DNA of 64,000 bases, taken from assembly GCA_001464425.1 (NCBI GenBank), contig LNEK01000037.1, positions 1-64,000 of the forward strand, read 5' to 3'. How positions within the stretch are numbered: the stretch's first letter is position 1; every line of letters begins with the position of its first letter. The notes under the pieces were generated by a model. The model made no database searches. It worked only from the letters and a program-made list of their open reading frames with translations, and was not told the origin of the DNA. Made by a program: the position numbers and the translations under genes. Positions 10,740 to 18,105 of this stretch are shown here, piece by piece. The DNA is from Alphaproteobacteria bacterium Ga0077535 (GTDB lineage: Bacteria; Pseudomonadota; Alphaproteobacteria; Caulobacterales; Aquidulcibacteraceae).

Positions 10740-11739
10740 TCAACCGCTCGCGCTAGCGCCCTCGCTCCGGATCAGCGCCTGCATACGCTCGCGGGCGTCG
10801 TGCCATTTATAGTCGAGCGATAGGCGCACCTCCTCCGGCAAATTCTCGACCCAGCTGCCGTCGAGAAAATGCTGCGACGCCCGCATCGTTTGCTGCGCGC
10901 GCGCCTCTGCGTCGGCTTCGCCCTCGCCGAGATTGATTTCGCGCCAGCGTTTGACCAGCAGCACGAAGGCGTGAGGCGCGCAGGCCGGCCCGGCCAAAAT
11001 GCTCCGCCACACTCACATCGATCCGATCGGCGCGGGCCTGCTCGGCCTCCGCCTTCGCCGCCTCGGCCGCGCGTTGGCTTTCAATGCGTTTGCGCAATTG
11101 GTCGGCCAATCCGGTCAGCACTTTTGCGTCCGCAGCCTTGCCCTGCGCCAACGCTTCGCCCACGCGCGACAGCGCCCTCTGCTCCAAGTCCTCAAGCGAA
11201 GCGCCTTGCAGCTCTGCCTGCTCCATCAGCTGCAACGCCTCGTCCGACGCGCGCGGCGCAGCGCTCGAGGCGCCATATCTGCGCATGCGGTCCGCCATCG
11301 ACGCCAACGCCTGCGCCTCTTTCGAGCGCCCCTGCACCATCGCTGCGCTCGCCTGCGCCAACGCCCGCCGCTCGATCGCGGCCGCGATCCCGGCCGCGTC
11401 CTCCTCCGACGCGATCTGCTCCACCAACGCGTTCATCTCGGCTTCGCGCTTGGCCGCCGCAAGCGCCTCAGCCGCCAGGCGCATCTCTTCGCGCAGCACG
11501 CCCTCCTCGATAAAGTTCGGCTTCTGCTTTTCGCGCACCACCCCGCGCGCCTCTAACGCCGCCGCATAGGCGCGCTTCGACCACTTCTCAACCGTGATGC
11601 GTTTCCTAATCGCGTGTTCGCTCACCCCGAACCGCTCCGCCAACGCCCGCGCCGACTCGCCGCCCAAATACGCCGCGCGGATCAACTCCCACGTCGCCGG
11701 CCCTGCAATCTTGTACTGGTTTCTCTCGGTTTTGCTCAT
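10740..11739 (-). pseudogene. HTH-domain protein gene with a frameshift near 11015
   Basis: From the ATG at 11739 the protein has an N-terminal helix-turn-helix region (about 15-50: WELIRAAYLGGESARALAERF, then VSEHAIRKRI), like resolvase or terminase-small-subunit HTH folds. A long Ala/Glu/Arg-rich coiled helical region follows, up to about residue 240. After RADRIDVSV the frame turns into Arg-rich nonsense, while the +1 frame carries a sensible ending (RSILAGPACAPHAFVLLVKR, later FLDGSWVENLPEEV and LSLDYKWHDARERMQAL). One missing or extra base near 11010-11020 would join them into about 330 residues. Function unknown; a phage-derived or nucleoid-associated DNA-binding role is possible. It may be broken, or the indel may be a sequencing error. 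Confidence 0.65.
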
Positions 11740-11809
11740 GGACGCGAGTGTACGTCCATATATCTCCCGGTCGGATCGGGGCGCTCTCCAGCGCAGGTTT
11801 CTCGTTTTG

Positions 11810-11870
11810 TAGCGGGGATTTAGCGGAAGTAGAGGGCGCGGGTTTAGCGGGATTTATCCTCGTTTAGTGG
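11810..11870. repeat. Iterated tagcgg motif upstream of the nuclease gene
   Basis: The hexamer tagcgg appears at 11810, 11821 and 11845, with a variant tagtgg at 11865, all on the plus strand and partly within ttTAGCGGgatt-type contexts. The cluster lies 30-90 bases before the nuclease start codon, in an otherwise featureless 160-base gap. It could be an operator array or chance. Confidence 0.35.
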
Positions 11871-11899
11871 AGCGCCTTGAATCGCGGTACCATCCTTCC

Positions 11900-12784
11900 A
11901 TGAAGACTCAGTCATGCAACGCGAAAACTGCATCCGGACGATCATGCACCAGGCCTGCGAAGGCGGATGGGCTCTGTGCCGCGCATCCGCGTTCGCAAGT
12001 GCGAGGCAAAAAGCAACAGACTTACCGCTCAATAGCAGATATCGCCCTCAAAGCATGCGCCGCTATGGGCTGGACAGCAGATATCTCTAACGAGGATCCT
12101 GATTTCGACTTTCTGACAATCGAGGCACGTCGCGACTACAGCCAGGATAGCGTCGTCGCAGTCTTAGAGTTCGCATTTGGAACAGACGGCATCGCTTACA
12201 GCGTCCACAAAAGCTCATTCAAAGGCTACGGCATCGAATCTCTTATGGAGGGCCTGACGGCACGCCTGACGCAAGCAGGGTGGCTAAAAAAGGACTCCGC
12301 GACATCGCAAGCCAAAGAGGCACAGAAAACGTTTCACACAACGTTGCTGTCCGTACTCAGAAATTTTGACCGATCTGCACGACAGCTCGCACGCGCGCGA
12401 AGAGAAGACAATCAGTTCCGAATTCGTGATGAGCACGACGCTCAAGACTTACTACACGCACTATTGCGCGCCTATTTTGACGACGTGCGTCCCGAAGAAT
12501 TTTCCCCCAGCGTCGCCGGTAGCTCTTCGCGAATAAACTTTCTGCTCAAGCACGAACAGGTTGCCGTTGAGATCAAAGTTGCTCGCGAATCGCTCAAACA
12601 GAAGCAGATCGGCGAACAACTCATTGTCGATATCAGCCGCTACGATGGGCACCCCAGTTGTAAGTCGCTATATTGCCTTGTGTTTGATCCGAACAATCAC
12701 ATCGCCAATCCAACAGGTCTCGAAGCTGATCTCAGCAAGAAACACAACGACCTCGATGTGCACGTCATAGTGACGCCGAAGTAA
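11900..12784 (+). CDS. Cys-finger / DpnII-MboI-type PD-(D/E)XK nuclease-like protein
   Basis: 294 residues from the ATG at 11900. The N-terminus has a small zinc-finger-like motif: Cys6, Cys16, Cys26 and His29 in SCNAKTASGRSC and GLCAAHP, as in DUF5763-like knuckles. Residues 40-190 form a middle region with no family I recognise. The C-terminal 85 residues follow the DpnII/MboI-type restriction-endonuclease pattern: RINFLLK, then VEIKVAR, QLIVDISRYDGHPSCKSLYCL, VFDPNNHI and a closing DLDVHVIVTP. Glu224 and Lys226 of the ExK motif are present, but the usual catalytic Asp of the RxDF segment is Asn213. GC content is lower than in the flanks, suggesting transfer. Its stop abuts the stop of the convergent HEPN gene with no base between. 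A role in defence is inferred; the substrate is unknown. Confidence 0.7.
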   Translation: MKTQSCNAKTASGRSCTRPAKADGLCAAHPRSQVRGKKQQTYRSIADIALKACAAMGWTADISNEDPDFDFLTIEARRDYSQDSVVAVLEFAFGTDGIAYSVHKSSFKGYGIESLMEGLTARLTQAGWLKKDSATSQAKEAQKTFHTTLLSVLRNFDRSARQLARARREDNQFRIRDEHDAQDLLHALLRAYFDDVRPEEFSPSVAGSSSRINFLLKHEQVAVEIKVARESLKQKQIGEQLIVDISRYDGHPSCKSLYCLVFDPNNHIANPTGLEADLSKKHNDLDVHVIVTPK

Positions 12785-13591
12785 CTACGCCCCGGAAGAC
12801 GGATCATCGAAGGCCTGCGGTCTTCCGGAGAGCACATGCTCAACCATCTGTTCACGCAACTCGTCGGCGCCCGGAGTACTTAGAGACACGCGAAAAAGAC
12901 GTCGGAATATTCCAGCGATCCACGCAAGCTCAGAGTACATTTCGGTATCTCGTTTGAAGCTATAGCCATGCGCAACTGCTGACCTGAGCGCGTAGGATTT
13001 CTTTATCCTATCAAAATAGGATGCTCGCTCGGCGACGGGCGATAGCGCCGACAAGGCAATCGCAACCTGTACGCTAGTCTCGTGCCTAAATGGCAACAAT
13101 CGCTCAACTGCCATCCAGGTGTGCGCGAACTGAAGCGGCACCGCGGAGCCTCCCCTTGCGTCAGCAGCAGTTTCAAGAGCAAGGAGTCTGTAGTCCTCTT
13201 TCGCAGACAAGAACTTTCCCGGCGTCGTCTCGCCTAGGAGCTGGAGTGTCGCATTGAAAGACTGATCCTGAACATCGGCGACTATCAGAACGGTTCGACT
13301 GTGTTCGAGAAACGGCAAATACCAGTTCTCTGCTTGGCGAAAGCGCGTTGAAGAACCATTCGGCAGCTTGCGAAATTCGCCGGAAACGGCGCCGCGCACA
13401 CCGTGCGTCAGCGCTACTGCCGCCAACAGACGACAGCATATTGCCCAGGAATACTGCTCGTCAGTGCCAGGCTTTTCGTCAAGAACTAGCGCGCCCCAGA
13501 AATTTTCCGGCAACGAATAGGATGCCTCGGATAGCCCCCCCCCCCGCATTGCTATCGTCGTAAGCAGATTTGACGAAATCGCTCCGCTCAA
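12785..13591 (-). CDS. Apea-like HEPN protein, C-terminal part (downstream of the G-tract)
   Basis: Carries the second part of a protein split at an 11-G tract. The real sequence begins at about LSEASYSLPENFWGALVLDE after the tract; the upstream TTG start at 13591 gives a frame-shifted stub. The C-terminal 100 residues match the Apea-like HEPN pattern: FAHTWMAVERLLPF, a helical region, then YALRSAVAHGYSF with the RxxxxH motif (Arg codon 12983-12985, His codon 12968-12970), typical of HEPN ribonucleases in toxin and phage-defence proteins. It is joined in phase to the N-terminal part (13479-14159) if one G is removed, giving about 457 residues. Its stop touches the stop of the nuclease gene. 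RNA cleavage is inferred from the motif. Confidence 0.65.
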   Translation of the reverse strand: MSGAISSNLLTTIAMRGGGLSEASYSLPENFWGALVLDEKPGTDEQYSWAICCRLLAAVALTHGVRGAVSGEFRKLPNGSSTRFRQAENWYLPFLEHSRTVLIVADVQDQSFNATLQLLGETTPGKFLSAKEDYRLLALETAADARGGSAVPLQFAHTWMAVERLLPFRHETSVQVAIALSALSPVAERASYFDRIKKSYALRSAVAHGYSFKRDTEMYSELAWIAGIFRRLFRVSLSTPGADELREQMVEHVLSGRPQAFDDPSSGA

Positions 13592-14159
13592 TCAACTCAC
13601 GAGGCGAATAAAATGCGGCTCCTTTGAACAGCTCCGAGCCACCGGAATTCCAGAACGCGACGTGATCCAAAAGGAAGACGACTTTTCCCAGAAGCTCGAT
13701 CTTACTTTCGACCTTTCGAACCTCAAAAAGTTGCGGACATATAGCCTTGAGATCCGCTTCGGGGACAACGAATGGCGACTTGCTGAGCGCCCGTTCCGTT
13801 ATCGACGAGTGGCCATAAAACCAGACCGCCCGATCAATGAACACATCTCCGGGCACTGTTTGATACAAATGCAGCGCACCCTCGACATCTCCGCGAACGG
13901 ACCTCCGTCGAATGTTCGACTTAAACTCGCCCCGAAGCTCAGGAAACTGCCGCCAAATCTCTTCGTTGCCGATTGCCAAACGGACGGCGTTCGTCCGTAT
14001 CTCTTCCAACTGTGTCTCGTCTCTGCTCAAAAGCTCAAGGATAACCAGGCCACGGTGATGTCGTGAGGACGACTGCACCCACGCGTCGCTGGACCCCACC
14101 GGCATGTAAGCCTGATCGATCGGCTCTAGTACCGCGATGTGACGAAGCCCCTCGCTCAC
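13479..14159 (-). CDS. N-terminal part of the HEPN protein gene (upstream of the G-tract)
   Basis: 226 residues as it stands, of which about 205 before the G-tract belong to the intact protein. The GTG at 14159 has GAGG six bases upstream; a TTG at 14171 is an alternative. The sequence (IAVLEPIDQAYMPVGSSDAW, later FIDRAVWFYGHSSITERAL and FEVRKVESKIELLGKVVFLLD) is alpha/beta and hydrophobic-patterned, with no signal peptide. I do not recognise a named domain; in Apea-type HEPN proteins the N-terminal part is usually a variable sensor or targeting domain. The start lies about 31 bases after the lepA stop on the same strand, with no visible terminator, so lepA transcripts may read into it. Confidence 0.65.
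   Translation of the reverse strand: MSEGLRHIAVLEPIDQAYMPVGSSDAWVQSSSRHHRGLVILELLSRDETQLEEIRTNAVRLAIGNEEIWRQFPELRGEFKSNIRRRSVRGDVEGALHLYQTVPGDVFIDRAVWFYGHSSITERALSKSPFVVPEADLKAICPQLFEVRKVESKIELLGKVVFLLDHVAFWNSGGSELFKGAAFYSPRELIERSDFVKSAYDDSNAGGGAIRGILFVAGKFLGRASS
13535..13545 (-). repeat. Run of 11 G (coding strand) inside the HEPN gene
   Basis: Eleven consecutive C on the plus strand (G on the coding strand) lie exactly where the reading frame of the HEPN gene changes. With 10 or 13 G the two halves join in one frame; with the 11 seen here translation runs on to a stop at 13479. Such tracts are classic slippage sites for phase variation, and are also prone to sequencing error. Confidence 0.9.
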
Positions 14160-14190
14160 TGTATACCTCAACTCACTTCACCGGCGATAC

Positions 14191-15996
14191 TCAGTCGCTA
14201 TCCATCTTCAGCGCCGCGATGAACGCTTCTTGCGGGATGTCTACTTTGCCGAACTGGCGCATCTTTTTCTTGCCGGCTTTCTGCTTGTCCAGCAGCTTGC
14301 GCTTCCGGCTCGCGTCGCCGCCGTAGCATTTGGCGGTCACGTCTTTTCGCAGCGCTGACAGCGTTTCGCGGGCGATGATGCGGCCGCCGATGGCGGCTTG
14401 GATCGGGATTTTGAACATGTGCTGCGGGATCAGCTCTTTGAGCTTTTCCACCATCGAGCGGCCGCGGCTTTCGGCGCGGCCGGCGTGCACGAGCATGGAG
14501 AGCGCGTCGACCGGATCGTCGTTCACCAGGATCGACATCTTCACCAGATCGCCGACGCGGTGATCGATGATGGAATAATCGAAGCTGGCATAGCCCTTCG
14601 AAACGCTCTTCAAGCGGTCGTAGAAATCGAACACGACTTCGTTGAGCGGCAACTCATAGACGAGCATCGCGCGTGAGCCGACATAGTTCAGCTCCTTCTG
14701 CACGCCGCGCCGATCCTGGCAGAGCTTGATGATCGAGCCGAGATATTCATCCGGCGTCAGCAACGTGGCTTTGATCCACGGCTCTTCGATTTCCTTGATG
14801 TAAACGACGTCCGGCAGGTCAGCCGGATTGTGAAGCTCCTTCACTTCGCCGCTGTTCATGTGGACTTTGTATACGACTGAAGGCGCCGTCGCGATGAGAT
14901 CGAGGTCGAACTCGCGGCTGAGGCGCTCTTGGATGATTTCCAAATGCAACAGCCCAAGGAAGCCGCAGCGGAAGCCGAAGCCGAGCGCGGCTGAGGTTTC
15001 CATTTCATAGCTGAAGCTGGCGTCGTTGAGCCGCAGCTTCGACATGGCGGCGCGGAGATCTTCGAAGTCCGCGGCGTCTGTCGGGAAGAGGCCGCAGAAG
15101 ACGACGGGTTGCGCCGGCTTGAAGCCTGGCAGCGCTTGCGCTGTTTCGCGGCGGTTTTCGGTGATGGTGTCGCCGACGCGCGCGTCCGCGACTTCTTTGA
15201 TGCTGCCAGTGAGAATGCCGATCTCGCCGGGGCCGAGTTCGGCGACGTCTTCGCGCTTGGGGCGGAGCACGCCGAGCGTGTCTACGTTATAATCGGCGCC
15301 GGTTTGCATGAGCTTGATGCGCATGCCCTTCTTCACCACGCCATCGATGACGCGGAAGAGCACGACGACGCCGAGATACGCGTCGTACCACGCGTCGACC
15401 AGCAGCGCTTTCAGGGGCGCATCGCGGTCGCCGGCTTTCGGCGGCGGCAGGCGCGTGACGATGGCCTCTAAGAGATCGGTGATGCCCTCGCCGGTTTTGC
15501 CGGAGGCGAGGATGGCTTGCGACGCGTCGAGGCCGATGACGTCCTCGATCTGCTGCTTCACGCGCTCGGGCTCAGCGGCGGGCAGATCGATCTTGTTAAT
15601 CACCGGCACGATGTCGAGATCGAGATCGAGCGCCTGATAGACGTTGGCCAGCGTCTGCGCTTCAACGCCCTGACTCGCATCCACAATCAGCAACGCGCCT
15701 TCGCAGGCGGCGAGGCTGCGGCTGACTTCGTAAGCGAAGTCCACGTGCCCAGGCGTGTCCATGAGGTTGAGAACATAGTCGTTCCCATCCTTGGCCCGGT
15801 AATCCAGACGCACCGTCTGCGCCTTGATCGTGATCCCCCGCTCCTTCTCGATATCCATGTTATCGAGAACCTGCTCGGTCATCTCCCGAGCCGTCAGCCC
15901 CCCCGTCGTCTGGATCAACCGATCCGACAAAGTGGATTTGCCGTGGTCGATGTGGGCCACGATGGAGAAGTTGCGGATTCTGTCGCGCGGAGTCAT
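14191..15996 (-). CDS. lepA: Elongation factor 4 (LepA)
   Basis: Translational GTPase that binds ribosomes and promotes back-translocation or recovery of stalled complexes. 601 residues, the family's usual size, starting [21 protein letters not shown]; the frame is open upstream, but those residues are not family-like. G motifs: AHIDHGKS (G1), DTPGH (G3), NKID (G4). The C-terminal segment with [20 protein letters not shown] is the LepA-specific domain that separates it from EF-G. It is transcribed away from tRNA-Leu across a 159-base gap, and the HEPN gene follows directly downstream. Confidence 0.98.
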
Positions 15997-16155
15997 GGAG
16001 GCGGTGGGTACAGGAGGCTGGCGCGAAGGCCAAGCATACACCCTGCCAATGGAGGGGCGGATAGATTGCCGCGCCTCTCCCGGCACCCCCTCCGTGGCCA
16101 GATTGACGCCCCGCCCGGCCTCCCTTAAACCCCGCCGACTTCTACCGACTAATGT

Positions 16156-16242
16156 GCCCGGATGGCGGAATTGGTAGACGCACCAGCTTCAGGTGCTGGC
16201 GCTCGCAAGGGCGTGGAGGTTCGAGTCCTCTTCCGGGCACCA
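16156..16242 (+). tRNA. tRNA-Leu (anticodon CAG)
   Basis: 87 bases. The acceptor GCCCGGA pairs with TCCGGGC, followed by discriminator A and an encoded CCA (16240-16242). The anticodon stem CCAGC/GCTGG encloses TTCAGGT, giving anticodon CAG, which reads CUG. The long variable arm (GCTCGCAAGGGCGT) is typical of leucine tRNAs, and the T loop is GGTTCGAGTCC. Confidence 0.96.
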
Positions 16243-16329
16243 TCCTACGCTCGCGGAGCGAGTTTCGGATGGCAGGCCATCTCATCGCAGTGCCCTTGGG
16301 CCATCTTCGCCCGCGTGCTACGCGGCCTT

Positions 16330-18105
16330 ATGCGTATTTCTGTCTTGGCTCTGAGCCTTATCCTTGCCGCTTGCGCCAGCGCGCCGGCCGCGACCACGAC
16401 AACCATTTCCACGACCGGCATCGCGCCGGCTTGGGATGCCGCGCGGATCGAGCCGATCCTGGCGCGGACACAGCGGCTGCATCTGAACGCTGACCTATCG
16501 GCGCTGACGCCCGGCGAGCGCGAGGCGGTGCGGGAATTGTTGGCGGCGGGCGAGCGGATGCATCGGCTCTATCTCGACCAGCGCCATCCGCAGGCCGTGG
16601 CGGGGAGCGTCTATCTGGAGGCGCATCCGGAACTCAGCGCGCATCGCGATCTCTTCCGGCTCAACTCCGGCCCGATCGCATCGACGCTCGACAATACGCG
16701 GGAGCCATTCCTGACCGTGGAGCGTGAGACGCCAGCGCGGAATATTTATCCGGCGGGCACGACGCGCGCGACAATGGATGCGTTTCTTACAGCGCACCCT
16801 GAACGCCGCGCCGAATTGATCGACGATCGCGGCGTTGTCTGGGCGGCGACGCCGGAAAATCGTCGCCGCGCGCTGGCGGCGCTCGATCGTTATCCGGCGC
16901 TCGACACGTTGCATCCGGGTTTGCGCGATCGTTTGCGGACGAGCGAGACCTATCTCGCCGTGCCCTATTCGGTGGCCTATGCCGAGGACATCTACTTTAT
17001 CTATGAGCGCTTGATCGCGGCGGCGGATCATGTCGAAAGCGGCGATGCGGCGTTCGCGCGCTATTTGCGGCTGCGGGCGCGTGATTTGCTCGCCGACGAT
17101 TACGAAGGCGGCGATGCGGCTTGGGTGACGGGCGATTTCACCGGTAATCTCAACGCACAGATCGGCGCTTACGAAACGTATGACGACGCGCTCTATGGCG
17201 TGAAGACGTTCTTCTCGCTCTCGCTGCTGGTCCGCGACCGGCCGCGCAGCGATGAGTTGCAGGCGGCGCTGGCGGATATTCAGGCGGTCGAGAATGCGCT
17301 GCCCTATAGCGAGCACCGCGAAGTGCGCAGCGACATTCCGGTCGGCGTTTACAACATCATCGCCGATTTCGGCCAAGCGCGCGGCGCCAATACAGCGACA
17401 ATCCTGCCGAATGACGCTTACCTCGCGCGTCAGTATGGCCGCACGATCCTGATGCGTGGCAATACCCTGCTGAACGATGATCTCTTCGCTGAAACGCATC
17501 GTGCGTTTACGGCGGCGGTCATCGCGGACCAGGCCGCCGATCTCACCGCTGAGGGCGGCTTCTACCGGACGCTCTGGCACGAAGTCGGCCATTATTTGGG
17601 CGTGGATCAAACAGCCGATGGGCGTGATCTCGACACGGCGCTCGAAGATACGTCAGCATTGCTGGAAGAGATGAAGGCCGACCTTGTCTCGCTTTCAGCC
17701 GTGCGTCTCCTCAACCAGCGTGGCCGCATCACCGACGCGCAGCTGCGCAGCATCTACGCCTCCGGTATTCGCCGCGTGCTGCAGAAGAACCAGCCGCGCC
17801 GCGAACAGCCGTATCAGACCATGCAGTTGATGCAGTGGAATTGGTTCCTCGATCGCGGCGCGCTGAGATTTGAAAATGGGCGCTTGCGCATCGATTATCG
17901 CCGCTACCCTGAAGCGGTGACGAGCCTGTTGCGCGAAGTGCTGGCGGTTCAGCGCAGCGGCGACCGTGTGCGCGCCAATGCGTTCATCGACCGCTGGACG
18001 ACTTGGGACCCGGCGCTGCACGAGGTCATCGCCCAGCGCATGCGCGAAACCGAGCGCACGCGCTATACGCTGGTGACGTATGAGGCGATCGATGGAGCGC
18101 AGTGA
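16330..18105 (+). CDS. M49-like zinc peptidase lipoprotein (dipeptidyl-peptidase III-related)
   Basis: 591 residues from the ATG at 16330; the frame is open back through the tRNA but is not coding there. A lipoprotein leader (MRISVLALSLILAAC) is followed by an Ala/Thr-rich tether. The zinc site is HEVGH at 417-421 in TLWHEVGHYLGVD, with EEMKAD about 25 residues later, the arrangement seen in M49 peptidases (second motif EExRAE/D). Canonical DPP III has six-residue HExxGH; here it is the five-residue form. The protein should act in the periplasm, removing dipeptides from oligopeptides, though the specificity is not proven. It overlaps the acyl-CoA synthetase start by 14 bases. Confidence 0.8.
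   Translation: MRISVLALSLILAACASAPAATTTTISTTGIAPAWDAARIEPILARTQRLHLNADLSALTPGEREAVRELLAAGERMHRLYLDQRHPQAVAGSVYLEAHPELSAHRDLFRLNSGPIASTLDNTREPFLTVERETPARNIYPAGTTRATMDAFLTAHPERRAELIDDRGVVWAATPENRRRALAALDRYPALDTLHPGLRDRLRTSETYLAVPYSVAYAEDIYFIYERLIAAADHVESGDAAFARYLRLRARDLLADDYEGGDAAWVTGDFTGNLNAQIGAYETYDDALYGVKTFFSLSLLVRDRPRSDELQAALADIQAVENALPYSEHREVRSDIPVGVYNIIADFGQARGANTATILPNDAYLARQYGRTILMRGNTLLNDDLFAETHRAFTAAVIADQAADLTAEGGFYRTLWHEVGHYLGVDQTADGRDLDTALEDTSALLEEMKADLVSLSAVRLLNQRGRITDAQLRSIYASGIRRVLQKNQPRREQPYQTMQLMQWNWFLDRGALRFENGRLRIDYRRYPEAVTSLLREVLAVQRSGDRVRANAFIDRWTTWDPALHEVIAQRMRETERTRYTLVTYEAIDGAQ

Follow-up and report, generated by a model that had tools for sequence, protein, structure and literature searches.

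In the Pgl phage defence of Streptomyces coelicolor, switching occurs at 10^-2 to 10^-3 in one direction and at 10^-3 to 10^-4 in the other and is attributed to a G tract in pglX (PMC4365076). A G tract that lies inside a defence or defence-type gene, and whose length sets or, in our case, may set the gene on or off, is also the feature in common with the locus analyzed in this study. This locus is an accessory insert behind lepA in a 64,000-nucleotide stretch of DNA (hereafter the window) from Alphaproteobacteria bacterium Ga0077535 (GenBank assembly GCA_001464425.1, contig LNEK01000037.1, positions 1 to 64,000 of the forward strand), and it comprises a gene for a DpnII/MboI-domain protein and a HEPN-like gene. 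According to the same source, pglX is a methyltransferase gene with a tract of 8 and demonstrated switching, whereas the window holds a tract of 11, a candidate switch seen in one assembly. The C-terminal domain of the first window protein aligns end to end with PF18742 proteins, which correspond to PHROG 29450 and to the C-terminal part of the PADLOC model Aga_Helical-REase; these proteins conserve an Asp at position 213, where the window protein has Asn, and neither an Argonaute gene nor a methyltransferase gene is adjacent here. The HEPN-like gene has a C-terminal R-x4-H stretch, a candidate for the motif of ApeA/Apea-like HEPN proteins (PF18739) and the HEPN superfamily, and yields no PF18739 match.

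We consider it reasonably probable that the insert, approximately 2.3 kb in size, was horizontally acquired at a variable, defence-rich site behind lepA and carries two separate, apparently unrelated single-gene defence-type cargoes. One would be a CCCH-finger and DpnII/MboI-domain protein of a widespread stand-alone family, probably dead as a nuclease, and the other a HEPN-like gene that is switched off or broken. A sequence-only reading of the window had instead proposed an undescribed two-gene defence module, and the distribution of relatives argues otherwise. We assembled 92 loci of nuclease relatives (80 from Genome Taxonomy Database [GTDB] genomes, the best of 283, and all 12 from IMG/VR, with up to 4 kb of flank per side), and neither half of the HEPN-like gene had a match in any of them (tblastn, E <= 0.1). 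The neighbours of these relatives were diverse, and no HEPN family was present among the 25 of 123 Pfam families listed for 122 immediate neighbours, a listing in which single HEPN neighbours may be missed. The pair was found together only here in the searches made: the nuclease was already seen in genomes without the HEPN-like gene, and the searches revealed no relative of the latter. On balance, the genes of the insert are better regarded as cargo of a variable, defence-rich site than as a conserved two-gene module.

Boundaries and variability of the insertion site

The insert spans approximately positions 11866 to 14189, between the leader of a helix-turn-helix (HTH) gene (10807-11739, minus strand) and the stop of lepA (14191-16086, minus strand), which is the conserved flank of the variable site and points its 3' end toward the insert. 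The boundaries were set by similarity to a genus relative nearly without the insert (G053, locus L054). The match runs through the HTH-gene leader to window base 11862 and starts again, in lepA, at window base 14200; the relative has approximately 296 bp in between. In five other relatives compared, similarity to lepA started at 14187-14200, and the leader match of L045 stopped at 11865. The GC content of the insert was 52-56% in 500-base windows, compared with 57-70% in the flanks shown, and its genes had a third-position GC of 0.57-0.62, compared with 0.75-0.82 in five neighbouring genes. These values bear out the lower GC reported in the sequence-only reading. Its view that the genes are foreign to the housekeeping flanks and of defence type also held. 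The nuclease and the C-terminal half of the HEPN-like gene each occurred in 1 of 60 family genomes, namely their own. The findings support the conclusion that both genes are accessory, were gained at a variable site, and are of defence type, and the insert was presumably acquired horizontally.

Repeats were rejected as borders of the insert, the repeat search having found only short ones inside 11600-14400. Promoter and terminator signals at the junction were likewise discarded, as 1 and 3 were found against 1.0 and 3.2 in shuffles, with none at the stops. An Rfam search of positions 11000-17000 revealed only a tRNA beside lepA. The HTH protein gave weak PHROG matches of the DNA-binding and terminase-small-subunit types; relatives of its gene were located near lepA in the genus loci L040 (as fragments), L045, L048, and L054, and the HTH gene may itself be part of the variable site.

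The content of the gap behind lepA varied widely among 20 lepA loci; the search covered 29 other genomes of the genus, and 19 of these supplied the loci. In one genome (G052), the next conserved gene was 202 bp from lepA. The Pfam scan of these gaps took in 20 open reading frames (ORFs) belonging to 14 loci (9 without a match), and the PADLOC scan 10 (5 without a match). Defence-type genes were identified behind lepA in 8 of the 20 loci. The cargo in these loci consisted of TIR (two loci), GmrSD_N with RiboL-PSP-HEPN, Abi_2/AbiD, SLFN-AlbA with HATPase_c_4, HATPase_c_4 alone, RelA/SpoT, and PIN genes. One of the two TIR genes, scanned in PADLOC, was ThsB-like, and the RelA/SpoT gene corresponded to the PADLOC candidate PDC-S33. 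The HATPase_c_4 part was RecG-C-like, and the PADLOC matches of the SLFN-type protein were to parts of Argonaute-system profiles. The evidence for these assignments is uneven: the firmest are of the TIR, GmrSD_N/HEPN, and AbiD types, and the PIN, RelA/SpoT, and SLFN-type genes are looser assignments. In six other loci, the scanned ORFs had no defence-type match; L036, for example, carried a TonB receptor gene and a cation efflux gene. These findings support a lepA-linked variable site that is rich in defence-type genes in this genus. No paper on a defence hotspot at lepA was found in the literature searched, which is no proof of absence.

Another nuclease-type and HEPN-type pair occupies the same site in G057, where GmrSD_N and RiboL-PSP-HEPN proteins are encoded directly behind lepA (L049, 6308-7875); the GmrSD_N protein resembles the PADLOC models NsnA and PD-T4-2_A. 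The G057 pair differs from that in the window in that its families are unrelated, its genes have the same orientation, and both ORFs read through without a stop. In another genus relative, G051, two lepA copies (contigs C42 and C8; L042 and L043), which are 92% and 91% identical to that of the window, lie on different contigs with different neighbours and represent either a true duplication or contamination.

The DpnII/MboI-domain protein and its relatives

The description of the first gene as encoding a nuclease-like Cys-finger/DpnII-MboI protein was correct. The ORF at 11900-12784 (plus strand) encodes 294 amino acids, and PF18742 (DpnII-MboI) matches residues 149-294 with an E value of 1.2e-46 and 158.5 bits, compared with a curated Pfam cut-off of 27; PHROG 29450 matches residues 152-294 (E 3.2e-48). 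A CCCH-type finger, C6-x9-C16-x9-C26-x2-H29, is encoded at 11915-11986 (plus strand) and coincides with a below-cut-off DUF5763 match. The same pattern was present in 5 of the 92 relatives (Desulfosarcina, Paenibacillus, and metagenome-assembled genomes from Bacillota, an alphaproteobacterium, and Fusobacteriaceae). A C-x-N-G-H motif in a zinc-ribbon-like N-terminus replaces it in 15 of the 92 loci (L077, L078, L086, and 12 more). With the finger in some relatives and the other motif in its place in others, the N-terminal parts are interchangeable.

The window protein has Asn at residue 213 (codon AAC, 12536-12538, plus strand), ahead of a retained ExK pair (Glu224 and Lys226; 12569-12577, plus strand), whereas Asp occupies this position in 92 of 92 relatives and in six aligned plasmid relatives. 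The equivalent residue of the EcbAgaN chain is also Asp in a weak PDB alignment (E 0.058). Position 213 lay outside the search patterns, so the Asp count is unbiased by them, yet the 80 GTDB loci were the best of 283. We take this Asp to be the catalytic one on the basis of the PD-(D/E)xK pattern and general knowledge. When the PD-(D/E)xK active site was examined, ExK was present but the D...ExK pattern was absent, N213 standing in place of D. These observations identify the protein as a PF18742 member by descent and do not support an active nuclease; because the conserved Asp213 is Asn, the window protein is probably catalytically dead or impaired. In intact relatives, the N-terminal part would bind nucleic acid and the PD-(D/E)xK domain would cut DNA, as knowledge of the family suggests. 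Cleavage of incoming DNA, recognized by the N-terminal part, was probably the original role of this nuclease-family protein, and the window copy probably does not cut.

No cognate methyltransferase gene was found beside the nuclease gene in a search of the adjacent genes, which are those for the HTH protein and the HEPN-like product; so far as these neighbours show, a type II restriction-modification system of the DpnII/MboI type is not supported. None of the adjacent proteins matched an Argonaute in PADLOC. The best PADLOC match of the nuclease, Aga_Helical-REase, covered only profile positions 226-375 of 378, and the protein does not fit the short-Argonaute effector of that name, lacking the full effector length and, among the adjacent proteins, an Argonaute partner.

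The nuclease family is widespread yet rare near home. Relatives were found in GTDB contigs (283 confirmed among 410 pattern matches), IMG/VR (12 among 74 pattern matches), plasmids (207 of 72,556 records), and phages (1 of 50,697 records), and the window protein by itself as a query had no match in IMG/VR. In a class-wide search, only 2 of 384 other genomes had nuclease matches, both weak (E 1e-4 and 3e-4). Neighbour scans of the 92 loci covered 122 of 135 ORFs of at least 110 amino acids; of the 13 omitted, two were near-duplicates, two were very long, and nine came from viral loci. The commonest Pfam families listed for these neighbours were phage integrase (5), PIN (4), and AAA_21 (3), with GmrSD_N, MmeI, SMC_N, and others at 2 each. 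Among the 25 of 430 PADLOC models listed, Mads, Septu PtuA, Gabija GajA, Old, and AriA-type models occurred two or three times each. The neighbourhood of the relatives is thus partly one of defence and mobile genes, with no fixed partner among the families listed. Six plasmid relatives whose surroundings were read stood among integrases or recombinases, AbiE-type genes, a filamentous-phage block, or plasmid maintenance genes. Five plasmid relatives (H3, H4, H5, H6, and H11) carry the annotation malate dehydrogenase, which looks like a naming error, and the name REase_DpnII-MboI was not found in the literature searched.

The HEPN-like gene and its G11 tract

The second gene had been described as a single, Apea-like HEPN gene, and neither the single gene nor the Apea-like type was confirmed. 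Two ORFs on the minus strand, at 13479-14171 and 12785-13591, lie in different frames, and their overlap spans eleven consecutive C, read as G11 on the coding strand, at 13535-13545. The N-terminal part (13546-14159, minus strand, frame 0) begins with a GTG codon preceded by TGAGG six bases upstream, and the C-terminal part (12785-13534, minus strand, frame 1) ends at the insert's convergent junction. A codon-usage scan preferred one frame in all blocks from 14190 to 13531 and the other in all blocks from 13590 to 12811. Because the preference flips between the overlapping blocks 13650-13531 and 13590-13471, both of which contain the tract, the frame change is placed at or near the tract. The scores were mostly low (the table was built from host genes and the nuclease gene), and those of the other frames were far lower in most blocks. 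Neither half contains a stop or a further visible lesion. One intact HEPN gene at 12785-14159 was therefore rejected on the basis of the frame break.

Only two runs of at least 10 G or C were found in the 3.96-Mb genome, both of eleven (this tract and C33:53582-53592). Runs of at least 8 numbered nine, compared with approximately 45 expected from a Markov estimate made on the window, and are thus depleted; for runs of at least 11, the estimate was 0.5 against the two observed. The location of one of the two G11 tracts inside the HEPN-like gene is suggestive, not proof. The gene resembles contingency genes in that a long homopolymer within the coding region sets the frame. Recent slippage, the off state of a phase-variable switch, and an assembly error are all compatible with the frame break. 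The other G11 tract (L061, 6583-6593) lies outside the listed ORFs of at least 100 amino acids; judging by their translations, the genes bordering it are curlin-repeat-like and glmM-like.

The HEPN-like label is plausible and rests on a candidate motif, RSAVAHG (R-x4-H), encoded at 12965-12985 (minus strand), and on a weak PHROG 28161 match over the motif stretch (residues 152-213 of the C-terminal half, E 0.0056). R-x4-H is of the motif type described for HEPN domains in a published analysis (PMC3710099). The C-terminal half contains three occurrences of R-x4-6-H, compared with a shuffle mean of 1.3, and the motif thus arises by chance as well. Neither half matched any Pfam family at E <= 10, a search in which HMMER filters drop many weak matches, or any PADLOC model at E <= 1, and no PDB chain matched the C-terminal half at E <= 10. 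The Pfam HEPN_Apea profile (PF18739) had no match in this genome; together with the Pfam result for the halves, this led us to reject the Apea-like assignment. Structure models made without relatives were unusable (mean predicted local distance difference test score 34.0 for the C-terminal half and 38.5 for a second model), and the motif region was modelled as helical at the very low confidence of the former.

No relatives of the C-terminal half were found in plasmids, phages, IMG/VR, or GTDB contigs, and none of the N-terminal half in plasmids or IMG/VR, the two collections searched with it. Matches to the HEPN-like gene in three other genomes of 385 (E 0.002-0.008) were rejected as chance. 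One of them has five stops inside, and the other two fall in loci whose listed ORFs resemble genes for housekeeping enzymes. A search of 398 genomes gave three further candidate matches (L058-L060). PHROG 28161 had no match in 249 genomes and none in the controls either, so this result is uninformative.

The HEPN-like product would be a costly effector, possibly a toxic abortive-infection RNase, whose gene is out of frame at a slippery tract, hypermutable in principle, and thus either in a phase-off state or freshly broken by slippage.

Cargo, module, or switch

The sequence-only reading had drawn attention to stops on adjacent bases, and this observation stood: the convergent nuclease and HEPN-like genes end on the touching bases 12784 and 12785. 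The arrangement was rejected as special, however, since touching stops are found elsewhere in the window too. Visual selection among the listed ORFs of at least 200 amino acids, which is short of a full census and includes ORFs not verified as genes, yielded five more convergent pairs, with gaps of -4, 8, -4, -4, and 0 bases. Given the broken frame of the HEPN-like gene, the loss of the conserved Asp from the nuclease, and the recurrence of abutting convergent stops, nothing specific speaks for mutual regulation through overlapping transcripts. A module in which the nuclease-fold protein is a DNA-binding sensor or neutralizer, the HEPN-like protein is the effector, and overlapping convergent transcripts regulate the two would draw on the touching genes, the shared insert, and the notion that a catalytically dead nuclease-fold protein could act as a sensor. 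HEPN families are, moreover, often linked to restriction-type genes (PMC3710099). The absence of co-occurrence in the 92 relative loci and of a HEPN family among those listed for the neighbours, together with the Asp kept in all 92 relatives and the similar convergent pairs, makes such a module very unlikely. The most elaborate version, a HEPN-like abortive-infection contingency locus operated by G11 in an alphaproteobacterium, with no close relatives in the collections searched, beside a non-catalytic nuclease-fold DNA-binding sensor or silencer in a lepA defence hotspot, is likewise very unlikely.

Phase variation is a sub-case of the two-cargo explanation, in which the length of G11 changes often and toggles a costly RNase in the population. 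The presence of one of two runs of eleven, where 0.5 were expected, in a genome depleted of runs of at least 8, the tract as the sole visible lesion inside a coding region whose halves each keep one frame throughout, and the precedent of the Pgl G tract (PMC4365076) all point in this direction. However, no length variation was observed in the single assembly, the number of runs of at least 10 does not exceed the Markov estimate, and the second G11 tract is outside listed ORFs, which shows that tracts of this kind also occur apart from switchable genes. A phase switch is a plausible but tentative reading, and it is no less likely that both genes are simply decaying. Alternatively, the tract length may be a homopolymer assembly or sequencing error and the real HEPN-like gene intact and on. 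Long homopolymers are error-prone, and both halves are open with one frame preferred throughout each, but completeness is otherwise 99.98% for this assembly of 44 contigs, and an error would leave N213 unexplained; we regard this alternative as unlikely. It is quite improbable that the two HEPN-like ORFs represent distinct genes that overlap, and not the parts of a single broken one: an ATG for the C-terminal half does occur just upstream of the tract, but no Shine-Dalgarno-like stretch precedes it and the frame change coincides with the tract.

Several observations weigh against the explanation of two separate cargoes, one probably dead and the other off or broken. The count of 8 in 20 loci has no control locus, so that "hotspot" is a reading of it, and six loci in which no gap ORF was scanned (L039, L040, L043, L048, L053, and L054) were counted as having no defence-type gene. 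Both genes lie inside the same two boundaries, and joint transfer is possible. The nuclease ORF is otherwise intact and keeps ExK and a DExDxQ stretch; its product could have kept DNA binding and a function of some sort. The HEPN identity is weak. Two runs of at least 10 were observed where 2.1 were expected, so that the tract alone is no proof of a selected switch, and the insert is present in one assembly only, in which the tract length may be an error.

Overall, what the sequence-only reading observed was confirmed in part, and its interpretation was supported in part. The lack of support for the two-gene module disposes of an attractive but false lead. Three results are of lasting use: a variable lepA-linked site at which defence-type genes gather in this genus; a widespread stand-alone family of DpnII/MboI-domain proteins whose N-terminal parts are interchangeable; and, within a HEPN-like gene, a candidate G-tract switch, the G11 tract being the most interesting part. 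If the length of this tract truly varies, the HEPN-like gene would add to the defence genes that operate as contingency loci.

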